A stretch of DNA of 64,000 nt from an uncultured Clostridia bacterium (GTDB taxonomy: Bacteria > Bacillota > Clostridia > Oscillospirales > Acutalibacteraceae). Position numbers and translations under genes: made by a program. The stretch is from NCBI GenBank assembly GCA_947166625.1, contig CAMVEX010000017.1, forward strand, positions 1 to 64,000, written 5' to 3'. Numbering within the stretch: position 1 is the stretch's first letter; the number at the start of each line of letters is the position of its first letter. Positions 26,491 through 35,558 of this stretch are shown one piece after another. Below the pieces are notes generated by a model. The model did no database searches and was not told where the DNA came from. It saw only the letters and a list, made by a program, of their open reading frames with translations.

Positions 26491-26532
26491 AAAAAAAGGC
26501 GCAGTACCCCTGACGGTACTGCGCCTTTGCAG
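26491..26532 (-). promoter_or_regulatory. attenuator ahead of gdhA with an ANTAR-like hexaloop hairpin
   Basis: Minus-strand RNA can form a terminator of 14 bp (AAAGGCGCAGTACC / GGTACTGCGCCTTT) followed by a T-run. The alternative is the smaller hairpin CTGC-AAAGGC-GCAG (26519-26532), whose loop and 3' arm are the 5' arm of the terminator. The loop has A at position 1 and G at position 4, the two bases recognised by ANTAR proteins. Confidence 0.7.
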
Positions 26533-26549
26533 CCTGTTTATTATCCCGT

Positions 26550-27131
26550 TTATTCTCTTTCTATGATCTCTTTTGCTACCTGCGCCTTTGAGCGCCTTGT
26601 ATCCATAGCATCCTTTTCGATAAATCTGTGAGCCTCGTTTTCGCTCATATTATGCTTTTCGATAAGGATGAATTTTGCTCTGTTTACGAGCTTTATCTCC
26701 TCAAGCTTATCCTGCAGCTTCACGATTTTCTTCTCGTCATTGAGAAGCCTTGCCGAAGTCGCCGTGACAAGCTTCATGGCTGTATATAAATTCTGCTTTG
26801 CGACCGGCTTGGGCACTGTCATCACTCCGCAGTCCTCGACCTTCCTGCAAATCATATCATATATCTCATCCTTGACCATCAGCAGCACGCCCGCCCTTGT
26901 GGAGTAGGCGATATCGGAAGCGAAATCGCTCCCGAATTCATCCGACAGCGGTGAATCCACAATGATTATGTCATAGTCGGCCGTAAGAAGCCGCCGCTTC
27001 GCCTCGCTCGCATTTGAAACGGTATCTATCCGCCTGTATCCGAAGGAAAGGAGCATTGCCGAAAGAATACCCGCGCTCTGCTGTTTCCCCGATACGACAA
27101 GGATGCTGTAGCTTCGCTTTTCTGCCGGCAT
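26550..27131 (-). CDS. ANTAR-domain antitermination regulator with a degenerate receiver
   Basis: A 193-residue two-domain protein. The N-terminal domain (about 8-115) has a CheY-like fold pattern with IIIVDSPL (Asp59 at the phosphorylation position) and VPKPV (the conserved Lys). The acidic pair after the first strand is replaced by Ser-Gly (ILVVSGKQQ) and the Ser/Thr switch position is not conserved, so phosphorylation is doubtful. Residues about 138-193 are an ANTAR domain (LQDKLEEIKLVNRAKFILIE... ENEAHRFIEKDAMDTRRS), which binds paired RNA hairpins with hexaloops and prevents termination. It is encoded 33 bp after a glutamine synthetase paralogue and before gdhA, and is the obvious candidate reader of the hairpins listed in this region. 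Confidence 0.9.
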   Translation of the reverse strand: MPAEKRSYSILVVSGKQQSAGILSAMLLSFGYRRIDTVSNASEAKRRLLTADYDIIIVDSPLSDEFGSDFASDIAYSTRAGVLLMVKDEIYDMICRKVEDCGVMTVPKPVAKQNLYTAMKLVTATSARLLNDEKKIVKLQDKLEEIKLVNRAKFILIEKHNMSENEAHRFIEKDAMDTRRSKAQVAKEIIERE

Positions 27132-27164
27132 ATACTTCCCTCCTTTCTCTCTGCCGTTCGCGGC

Positions 27165-33680: not shown

Positions 33681-33749
33681 CTTAAAACAGCGGCGGTGTA
33701 TCAGCTGTGCATTCACCGCATATTTTACGGAAAGAGAGTTATATATATT

Positions 33750-35504
33750 ATGAATGAATCAATATTTACCGCCGTTACACAAAGCGTATTCGGCGTATGG
33801 TTTCTGATCGGGGCGGCGCTTGTATTCTTTATGCAGTGCGGCTTCGCAATGGTCGAAAGCGGATTCACAAGGGCAAAAAACGCCGGCAATATAATAATGA
33901 AAAACCTGATGGATTTCTGCATCGGCGCCATTATGTTTATTTTGCTCGGATTCGGCCTGATGATGGGTGAAGAGTGCCTCGGCGGGTTTATCGGCATGCC
34001 GACTCTCGGAGTTTTCACCGATTACGCTCATTTCGACTGGTCAAATTTCGTTTTCAATCTTGTCTTCTGCGCCACGGCCGCAACGATAGTTTCGGGCGCT
34101 ATGGCCGAAAGGACAAAGTTTTCTTCATACTGCATCTATTCCGCGGTAATTTCTGCAGTAGTTTATCCGATAGAAGCAGGCTGGATCTGGAATCCGAACG
34201 GCTGGCTCGCGAAACTCGGCTTTCATGATTTTGCCGGGTCAACGGCAATTCATATGGTCGGCGGTATAGCCGCATTTATAGGAGCCGCGATGCTCGGCCC
34301 GAGAATAGGCAAATATAAAATCGATAAGGCAACGGGCAAAAAGACGGCAAGGGCAATTCCGGGTCATAATCTGACTGTCGGCGCGCTGGGCGTATTCATA
34401 TTGTGGTTCGGCTGGTATGGCTTTAACGGCGCGGCCGCTACGAATACCGATATGCTCGCCTCGATTTTTGTAACGACAACTCTCGCTCCGTCGGTCGCGA
34501 CTGTCGTTACCATGATATTCACCTGGATCAAAGACGGTAAACCCGATGTTTCAATGAGCCTCAACGCATCGCTTGCGGGACTTGTGGCAATAACAGCGCC
34601 CTGTGACTGCACCGACGCTCTCGGCTCGATAATTATCGGCGCCGTCTCGGGAATTCTGGTTGTAGTCGCGGTTGAAGTGATAGATAAGAAGCTTCATATT
34701 GACGATCCCGTCGGTGCGTGCGCCGTTCATCTCGCAAACGGCATATGGGGTACTTTCGCTGTCGGCCTTTTCTCGACCGGCGCGAACGGTGTCGGAAAAG
34801 GATTATTCTACGGCGGAGGCTTTAAGCAGCTTGGTATTCAGGCGCTCGGCTTCCTCGCAGTCGCCGCTTGGACGGTTTGCACAATGCTGGTTGTATTCAC
34901 CGCAATCAAAAAATTCCACGGTCTGCGTGTCAGCGAAGAGGAAGAAATCAAAGGCCTTGACGCTACCGAGCACAATCTTCCCTCAACTTATGCCGATTTT
35001 ATGCCGGCTATGGCGGTCGCGACCTCCGCTTCAATGAAGGCAATACTGCCCGACGCGAAAGATGTATCGCCTCTCGTTCCCGCTCAGCCTGTGGAAACAG
35101 CCGTTCCGGTTGAATCATATATCGCAAAGAGCAAACCCGCCCTGACTAAAATAGTTATGGTCTTCAATCCCGCGCGGTTTGAAGCGGTCAAAGACGCGAT
35201 GAATGATATCGGCGTTACGGGAATGACGGTAACAAACGTTATGGGCTGCGGCACTCAGAAAGGCCACAACATCAAGAAATACAGAGGCGTTGAGATAGAG
35301 GAAATGAATCTCAATCCGAAGATGAAGCTTGAAATGGTTGTCTCGGCAGTGCCCGTGCAGGATGTTGTTGACGCCGCGCGCAGGGTGCTCTATACAGGCA
35401 ATATCGGCGACGGCAAAATCTTTATCTATGAGGTTGACGATGTCGTCAAGGTCCGCACAGGTGAGCGCGGTTATGACGCTCTCCAGGGTGAGGATGATAT
35501 TTAA
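33750..35504 (+). CDS. amt: ammonium transporter fused to a PII signalling domain
   Basis: A 584-residue fusion. Residues 1 to about 400 are an Amt/MEP channel with eleven predicted membrane helices: FMQCGFAMVESGFTRAKN, GGIAAFIGA, FGWYGFNGAA and DPVGACAVHLANGIWG, the last including a pore His. A linker (about 400-460) leads to a complete C-terminal PII domain (about 468-575): VMGCGTQKGHNIKKYRG is the T-loop region and TGNIGDGKIFIYEV the PII C-terminal signature. The usual Tyr51 of the T-loop, site of uridylylation, is not present (RGVEIEE instead of RGAEY). The tethered PII could gate the channel by ATP/ADP/2-oxoglutarate status. ATG 33750 is preceded by AAGAGAG at 11 bp. Confidence 0.92.
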   Translation: MNESIFTAVTQSVFGVWFLIGAALVFFMQCGFAMVESGFTRAKNAGNIIMKNLMDFCIGAIMFILLGFGLMMGEECLGGFIGMPTLGVFTDYAHFDWSNFVFNLVFCATAATIVSGAMAERTKFSSYCIYSAVISAVVYPIEAGWIWNPNGWLAKLGFHDFAGSTAIHMVGGIAAFIGAAMLGPRIGKYKIDKATGKKTARAIPGHNLTVGALGVFILWFGWYGFNGAAATNTDMLASIFVTTTLAPSVATVVTMIFTWIKDGKPDVSMSLNASLAGLVAITAPCDCTDALGSIIIGAVSGILVVVAVEVIDKKLHIDDPVGACAVHLANGIWGTFAVGLFSTGANGVGKGLFYGGGFKQLGIQALGFLAVAAWTVCTMLVVFTAIKKFHGLRVSEEEEIKGLDATEHNLPSTYADFMPAMAVATSASMKAILPDAKDVSPLVPAQPVETAVPVESYIAKSKPALTKIVMVFNPARFEAVKDAMNDIGVTGMTVTNVMGCGTQKGHNIKKYRGVEIEEMNLNPKMKLEMVVSAVPVQDVVDAARRVLYTGNIGDGKIFIYEVDDVVKVRTGERGYDALQGEDDI

Positions 35505-35517
35505 TCGCAGAATTCAG

Positions 35518-35558
35518 GCAATTAAGGGCAGTTTTACGCTGCCCGGATATTGCTTTTT
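35518..35558 (+). promoter_or_regulatory. attenuator between the transporter and glutamate synthase genes
   Basis: A terminator with two stem sections (GCAAT / ATTGC outside, GGGCAG / CTGCCC inside) ends in TTTTT. The alternative hairpin AATT-AAGGGC-AGTT (35520-35533, one G-T pair) has the A1/G4 hexaloop and covers the 5' arm of the terminator. Confidence 0.65.

Follow-up and report, generated by a model that had tools for sequence, protein, structure and literature searches.

In the accepted model of ANTAR-dependent antitermination, as set out in passages of PMC3369931 and PMC8934654, a protein dimer is recruited by one RNA hairpin with a six-base loop (hexaloop) and then passes to a second hexaloop that overlaps an intrinsic terminator. 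Passages of the structural work of 2022 describe one hexaloop as the minimal binding site and both as needed for antitermination, and expect lone hexaloop sites where the transcribing polymerase imposes no time limit (PMC8934654). ANTAR regulation of clostridial nitrogen genes is known as well: a two-hairpin model of 2012 predicted glutamate and glutamine synthase genes among the ANTAR targets (PMC3369931), NitR of Clostridium saccharobutylicum is reported to control glutamine synthetase and glutamate synthase (GS/GOGAT), with induction under nitrogen limitation and a proposed antitermination (PMC6316151), and the ANTAR protein Clo1313_2030 of C. thermocellum is encoded in a GOGAT gene cluster (PMC4676874). 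Here, we analyzed 64,000 nucleotides (nt) of an uncultured Clostridia bacterium (contig CAMVEX010000017.1, our C17, of a 2.49 Mb assembly that is 97% complete), hereafter called the window, in which a divergent block of nitrogen genes encodes an ANTAR protein. Four leaders of this block, those of gdhA, asnB, glnA and the gene pair formed by a glutamine synthetase paralogue and the ANTAR protein (GS2-ANTAR), are probably attenuators under the control of the ANTAR protein that the block itself encodes. Since ANTAR control of clostridial GS/GOGAT is already published (PMC6316151), the novelty lies in the architecture and not in the idea of a regulon. Sequence comparison gives good support to an arrangement in which each terminator has a single hexaloop that is joined to the promoter, in single or tandem copies and across Clostridia; a GS-derived sensor is a possible further element.

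The initial annotation of the window had placed a hexaloop hairpin in five leaders and had described each hairpin as mutually exclusive with a terminator. All five hairpins were found with the described loops when the leaders were re-read, namely gctgcAAAGGCgcagt before gdhA, gaacAAAGGCgttc before GS2, ggcAAAGGTgcc before asnB, aaagcAACGGCgcttt before glnA and aattAAGGGCagtt before the glutamate synthase gene. The exclusion was borne out by computing the overlap at each leader: the 5' arm of a strong terminator overlaps every hairpin, with folding energies from -18.9 to -26.7 kcal/mol that at most 4 of 200 shuffles equal. On the minus strand, the GS2-ANTAR promoter has a -35 box TTGACT (28481..28486) and a -10 box TATAAT (28458..28463) at a 17-nt spacing, similar in relatives, and 6 nt separate the end of the -10 box from the stem of the conserved hexaloop GAAC-AAAGGC-GTTC (28438..28451); the hexaloop and its 3' arm build the terminator (28403..28447, -18.3 kcal/mol). 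The gdhA hexaloop CTGC-AAAGGC-GCAG (26519..26532, minus strand) lies between the ANTAR gene and gdhA and is overlapped by a terminator at 26495..26528 (-26.1 kcal/mol). On the plus strand, the asnB promoter reads TTGACA-17-TAGAAT (28597..28625) and is followed, 13 nt from the -10 box to the stem start, by the hexaloop GGC-AAAGGT-GCC (28639..28650), with the terminator at 28639..28668 (-23.2 kcal/mol). The glnA hexaloop AAAGC-AACGGC-GCTTT (32089..32104, plus strand) goes with a terminator hairpin at 32087..32131 (-25.1 kcal/mol).

We compared the intergenic intrinsic terminators of the window with those found elsewhere in the genome, in 20 stretches of other contigs that total 400 kb, counting hexaloops with A1 and G4, at least three pairs and a 3' arm inside the terminator 5' arm. 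The intergenic subset was used because the first terminator caller was too loose, with 899 calls in 400 kb, mostly within genes. Such a hexaloop was in register in 5 of the 25 window terminators, exactly the five leaders, vs 0 of the 84 outside (Fisher P = 0.0005, or P = 0.002 without the glutamate synthase site; both values are optimistic because the window was chosen after it had first been read). Equal frequency at ordinary terminators of the genome, which would have spoken against the initial annotation, was thus not seen in this sample. A covariance model (R1), seeded with 39 hairpins picked by their loop and at least three pairs and partly taken from genomes later searched, ranked four window sites 1, 3, 6 and 7 genome-wide; as 150 of the 2230 first-look candidates were scored, weaker members may be missed among the others. 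The remaining 23 of the 27 model matches lie inside reading frames of at least 87 codons, 22 on the same strand and 1 on the opposite one, and a terminator-like fold by a loose rule was found in 2 of these 23.

In orthologous leaders of up to 11 close relatives, we looked for a loop ANNGNN with a C-G closing pair and three pairs, followed by a T-tract. This arrangement was present before GS2 in 9/10 relatives, asnB in 10/10, gdhA in 6/9 and glnA in 11/11, together 36 of 40 leaders; the GS2 hairpin itself is found in all ten, the tenth (L036) being without a T-tract by this rule. Control leaders showed it in 2 of 28 cases (pyrG 1/9, guaA 0/8, amt 1/11); here and below, pyrG, guaA, carA, gltB, GSIII, purB and purC are names that we assume for these genes. 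The loop A-A-N-G-R-Y and the C-G closing pair recur at the four sites in nearly all relatives. Across 11 asnB leaders the loop reads AAAGGT, AAAGGC, AAAGAC, AAAGAG, AAGGAC or AAGGGC, with positions 1, 2 and 4 invariant and positions 3, 5 and 6 variable. Judged from this alignment, the pattern is that of the ANTAR rule and would not be expected from the terminator alone, because the terminator pairs should be equally free to covary. The glutamate synthase leader, claimed as the fifth member, did not stand: its hexaloop-like hairpin (35520..35533, plus strand) is without the C-G closing pair, and the site is absent from the covariance-model matches in the window up to E = 5. We dropped this leader from the set because 0 of 3 close relatives keep the hairpin, which is probably a product of chance.

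Beyond the close relatives, the pattern TATAAT-N4-9-GARCAANGGCGTTC was searched in a public genome collection and matched at least 119 genome stretches, with an overlapping terminator at 99 of these 119. Among 80 of these records, nearly all belong to Clostridia or to unplaced bacteria, the exceptions being Treponema (2), Anoxybacillus (2) and one Zixiibacteriota. A good -35 box at 16-18 nt accompanies 80 of the 99 terminator-bearing sites and 9 of the 20 others, vs 1/99 and 1/20 at a control spacing; as a distance of 4-9 nt between promoter and GARC is built into the pattern, these sites cannot prove it. The first frame of at least 80 codons after each hairpin was compared with a small set of known proteins (120 rows, one site being entered twice). 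Where recognised, these frames are mostly glutamine or glutamate genes: gltS 21, glnA 17, GS2 14, gltB 6, asnB 4, ANTAR 3, carA 3, GSIII 3, amt 2, pyrG 2 and purA 1. The other 44 were unrecognised; 28 were usable and 25 were scanned with Pfam (L217, L239 and L240 were left out), giving glutamine amidotransferases, CTP synthase, Na/alanine symporters, an ammonium transporter and adenylosuccinate synthetase, along with cation efflux, diaminopimelate epimerase, acetolactate synthase and others.

The occurrence of the element is linked to ANTAR genes. Among the first 120 model matches listed in relatives, 88 were examined: in 25 ANTAR-bearing genomes 52/67 had an overlapping terminator, 38 of them also lying outside reading frames of 80 codons, and in 11 genomes without ANTAR none of the 21 had one, a single match being intergenic. 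The model behind these counts was built partly from the same ANTAR-bearing genomes; the pattern search was not selected on ANTAR. For 50 of the at least 119 pattern loci, an ANTAR gene was found in 45 of the 50 genomes, that is, in 39 of the 40 with a terminator, as the proposed co-occurrence predicted, and in 6 of the 10 without. When 391 genomes were drawn evenly from the class, 15 carried the pattern and 14 of these encode ANTAR, vs 196/391 overall (P = 0.0004, relatedness uncorrected); a reversed control pattern occurred once. On the protein side, of the EutV residues that contact G4 according to the structural work (PMC8934654), Lys149, Glu160 and Met172 align with invariant residues in all 24 ANTAR proteins compared and Tyr164 and Arg142 are not conserved, the EutV numbering being fitted with an offset of 2.

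Covariation in the small stem, on which the initial annotation had staked its proposal, was found in relatives. In the 39 hairpins we counted 45 double-change cells vs a shuffle mean of 20; 0 of 500 shuffles reached 45, and slid versions were far lower. As the sites had been selected for three inner pairs, the outer pairs allow a fair test: 28 of the 39 hairpins form pair 4, vs 22.4 expected (2 of 2000 shuffles), and 22 form pair 5, vs 17.1 expected (78 of 2000). The 99 terminator-bearing pattern matches had been selected for four inner pairs; 56 of them form pair 5, vs 43.5 expected (4 of 2000 shuffles), and 68 form pair 6, vs 59.4 (17 of 2000). None of these shuffle statistics is corrected for relatedness. 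The excess in outer pairs stops beyond this point, which suggests a true stem of about 4-5 pairs, perhaps six in some sites.

Overall, these results point to the following mechanism. Each leader would carry one hexaloop whose loop and 3' arm double as the 5' arm of an intrinsic terminator. When no active ANTAR protein is present, the far more stable terminator would form and the transcript would end; the hexaloop is the less stable of the two predicted folds in 99/99 units. Under nitrogen shortage, an ANTAR dimer would grip the hexaloop, so that the terminator could not nucleate and the polymerase would read through. In promoter-proximal copies the hairpin would form at the expected RNA 5' end or a few bases from it, with no recruitment hairpin ahead of it, and leaders of relatives with two full units in series would act as two gates. 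We infer ANTAR binding and antitermination at these leaders and, by analogy with NitR, induction by nitrogen shortage. The single ANTAR regulator that had been proposed for both divergent halves of the block thus holds computationally, by way of four leaders.

This arrangement resembles EutV-EutW of Enterococcus faecalis, as described in the published extracts, in the ANTAR protein, the A1/G4 hexaloop with a C-G closing pair (eut motif AGCAANGRRGCUY), the overlap of the hexaloop with a terminator stem and the nitrogen-related genes. It differs in having one hexaloop per terminator with none found before it, a hairpin at the expected transcription start, stems often longer than three pairs, a receiver without the acidic pocket, and His for Tyr164. 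With NitR and Clo1313_2030, to judge from parts of those reports, it shares an ANTAR regulator of or beside GS/GOGAT genes, and with NitR also an ANTAR gene that adjoins GS and sites at GS/GOGAT genes, although the window's own GOGAT site fails; the present work adds the RNA element, its form with a single hexaloop, its tandem copies and a larger set of genes. Single-hexaloop terminator leaders were not found described in the literature searched, whose coverage takes in few subscription journals. In 99 of at least 119 pattern stretches, a lone hexaloop lies right on a terminator, at the bases where transcription is expected to begin; either the accepted ANTAR model is incomplete or these proteins act differently. 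For Clostridia, of which many are uncultured, the hexaloop leader may also serve as an RNA signature of the nitrogen regulon.

Several observations weigh against control of these leaders by ANTAR through single hexaloops. Taken alone, the asnB site is ambiguous, because its terminator also uses the 5' arm of the hexaloop. The unit is missing from the gdhA leader in three of nine close relatives, and none was found in four gdhA leaders of three other ANTAR-bearing members of the genus; gdhA leaders of 12 genus members without detected ANTAR (G003 included) had none either, a weak test that says little because the ANTAR-bearing members are also without the unit and the gdhA copies are 58-65% identical (16 of 21 loci were used, with partial or distant genes excluded). 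Four genomes have the element, be it with a terminator, in tandem or as a unit-like leader, and no ANTAR found, namely G003 (83% complete), G436 (89%, its terminator unchecked), G041 (90%, with a weak T-tract) and G474, and four more (G450, G470, G478 and G481) have the bare pattern with neither a terminator nor an ANTAR found. In the stem, pair 6 of the 39 hairpins is formed in 21 vs 21.6 expected, hence without covariation, as are pairs 7 to 9 of the 99 pattern matches. In the protein, the position of EutV Tyr164 is His in 24/24 sequences, as in AmiR, and Arg142 is not kept. According to passages on EutV, deletion of P1 (the first hexaloop) or a change of linker reduced induction (PMC3369931) and a longer linker abolished antitermination (PMC8934654), so that a lone hexaloop would not be expected to work under the EutV model, in which P1 and the linker are needed. 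As a separate observation, one hexaloop leader of G041, which has no detected ANTAR, stands before purB-like and purA-like genes (around position 1998 of locus L183, G041:C40:10497).

As to the signal, the ANTAR gene of the window (26550..27131, minus strand) encodes a receiver-like domain (Pfam Response_reg, 31.1 bits) and an ANTAR domain (PF03861, about 63.5-65.9 bits), and its product is the single ANTAR match in the assembly. In 24 of 24 ANTAR sequences, none of the three receiver positions that correspond to the acidic pair holds an acidic residue, and the phospho-site is Asn in 13 and Asp in 11, the window protein having Asp. Phosphorylation therefore appears unlikely as the signal in most of these proteins, since their receivers are without the acidic pair and often carry Asn at the phospho-site. 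A receiver capable of phosphorylation, absent here by the acidic pair (0/24), is a feature of EutV and not common to all ANTAR proteins. In AmiR-AmiC and NasT-NasS, a ligand-binding partner protein governs the ANTAR protein; the candidate partner here differs in being a glutamine synthetase paralogue. A GS gene stands immediately before the ANTAR gene in 27/27 loci that show the ANTAR start. In the window this gene is GS2 (27165..28379, minus strand), which encodes 404 amino acids and has Lys in place of the Glu flap, a catalytic element in glutamine synthetase. GS2 is shorter than the window GlnA (404 vs 447 amino acids).

Of 26 GS2 sequences, the window's included, 23 have Lys at the Glu-flap position, 2 have Glu and 1 has Ala. 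Among 39 ANTAR-adjacent GS of public contigs, 26 have another residue in place of the flap Glu (K 19, G 4, D 2, S 1) and 13 keep it, and because the replacements differ, the comparison suggests that it was lost repeatedly. Another GS type adjoins ANTAR in L201 (Lachnospiraceae), L220 (Blautia), L284 and L304, with Gly at this position. In ten GS for which no ANTAR neighbour is visible, some of them truncated where the locus ends, the position holds Glu in 4, another residue in 5 and a gap in 1, so the contrast between ANTAR-adjacent and other GS is not clean. The findings point to a GS-derived sensor with an apparently repeated loss of the catalytic flap, and since the receiver has no phosphorylation pocket, we propose more speculatively, from analogy, that GS2 could sense glutamine and exert direct control over the ANTAR protein. 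In Bacillus subtilis GS-TnrA, a passage of PMC6316151 likewise presents glutamine synthetase as a nitrogen sensor for gene control; the regulator there binds DNA and the enzyme is active, whereas here the regulator would bind RNA and the GS is often flapless. The full chain, in which a flapless GS would clamp a phosphorylation-independent ANTAR protein that, once freed, would block the terminator through a single 5'-end hexaloop across Clostridia, is put forward tentatively, its chances lying somewhat below even. If true, ammonium uptake, GS, GOGAT, glutamate dehydrogenase and several enzymes that consume glutamine would all be governed by one RNA switch, single or tandem, and ANTAR antitermination would not always follow the two-hairpin rule.

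The strongest competing account, to which we give almost an even chance, leaves the ANTAR element in place and brings the signal in through P-II, AmtB or an unlinked kinase, the GS paralogue being a working enzyme. The window does encode an Amt-P-II fusion; all six metal ligands are retained in 38/39 ANTAR-adjacent GS, in which the Glu flap survives in 13/39, and 5 of the 10 GS without a visible ANTAR neighbour are flapless too, while the phospho-site Asp is kept in 11/24 ANTAR proteins. Set against this are the acidic pair, absent in 24/24, the GS gene directly before the ANTAR gene in 27/27 loci and the replacement of the Glu flap by K, G, D or S in 26/39. The fusion itself is a single reading frame of the window (33648-35504, plus strand) that joins an ammonium transporter (Pfam Ammonium_transp, residues 50-443) to P-II (residues 500-606).

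The initial annotation had also argued for one hexaloop per leader, a simplified variant, and for a lack of room for a second one where the promoter is mapped, and both points were upheld. In recognisable promoters 17 nt separate the -35 and -10 boxes, and the distance from the end of the -10 box to the stem is 5-8 nt for GS2 and gltS, 7-8 nt for gdhA, 8-12 nt for glnA and GSIII and 13-15 nt for asnB. These distances come from leaders that had been identified, by orthology or as units, before the pattern was drawn up. As a three-pair hexaloop takes 12 nt, the interval from the expected +1 to the stem leaves no space for a recruitment hairpin. A P1 hexaloop a short fixed linker upstream was not found in the scanned window leaders or in the relatives' promoters. 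The single other ANNGNN hexaloop with at least two pairs in the scanned stretches lies in the glnA leader (32182-32201) and was rejected, as L053, with a 99% identical GlnA, does not share it. Between the first hexaloop and the T-tract, a second A..G hexaloop occurs in 16 of 100 leaders, no more commonly than control loops (11, 15, 17 and 30).

These counts bear on the reading as canonical dual-hexaloop leaders whose P1 was missed because it is degenerate or made of distant RNA. The targets of EutV, NasR and AmiR do have P1 and P2, according to a passage of PMC3369931, and no local promoter was found for the window gdhA and glnA, so upstream RNA exists there. The short distance from the -10 box to the stem in the GS2, gltS, gdhA, GSIII, glnA and asnB leaders with a promoter, together with the unexceptional frequency of second hexaloops, makes this reading improbable.

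Where two hexaloops do occur, we read them as two gates and not as a P1-P2 pair, because a T-tract separates them where examined. In the glnA leader of the 11 close relatives, a hexaloop with its terminator is followed 52-81 nt on by a second hexaloop with its terminator; both units are found by the strict rule in 9/11, the second hairpin being present by sequence in the other two, and a promoter lies directly before the first unit in 6/6 relatives tested. In the window, pyrG is directly upstream of glnA and the second unit alone remains, to which the window hexaloop is equivalent by comparison with relatives. More distant relatives have tandem hexaloops before gdhA (L049, L051) and amt (L045), and 1 of 100 pattern leaders has a second unit downstream of the first. 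Elsewhere, two hexaloop-terminator units precede a purC-like gene in L160 (1307-1388, minus strand).

That the leaders are ordinary A-tract intrinsic terminators, of which AAAGGC...GCCTTT is a common form, with a small stem by chance, is very unlikely. The AAAGGC loop letters are also the terminator 5' arm, and this probably accounts for the glutamate synthase site. The other 84 sampled intergenic terminators show no such hexaloop, and the 21 model matches in genomes without ANTAR have no terminator. Moreover, the 5' arm of the hexaloop is wholly unpaired in the terminator-containing fold in 88 of 99 units, the asnB leader being an exception, yet it is complementary past the selected pairs; because the arm is unpaired there, the terminator does not explain this complementarity. 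Also very unlikely is a reading at the DNA level, in which the repeat would be a repressor's operator at the start site and not an RNA element: the GAAC-N6-GTTC dyad does sit at the expected +1, but stem pair 2 is G-U in 10/39 sites and so no DNA dyad, the conserved loop is asymmetric, copies occur between operon genes and as second tandem units away from the promoter, and the linkage is to an RNA-binding protein.

Among the other features of the window, a 26-codon frame (32153-32233, plus strand) lies between the glnA attenuator and glnA, where several relatives have other short frames, and a 47-codon frame (30295-30438, plus strand) separates asnB and pyrG. Curated Rfam families gave no match above the gathering threshold at the nitrogen leaders of the window and six related loci. 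At the far end of the window (63621-63698, minus strand), an S10-Clostridia ribosomal protein leader scores above the Rfam gathering threshold.

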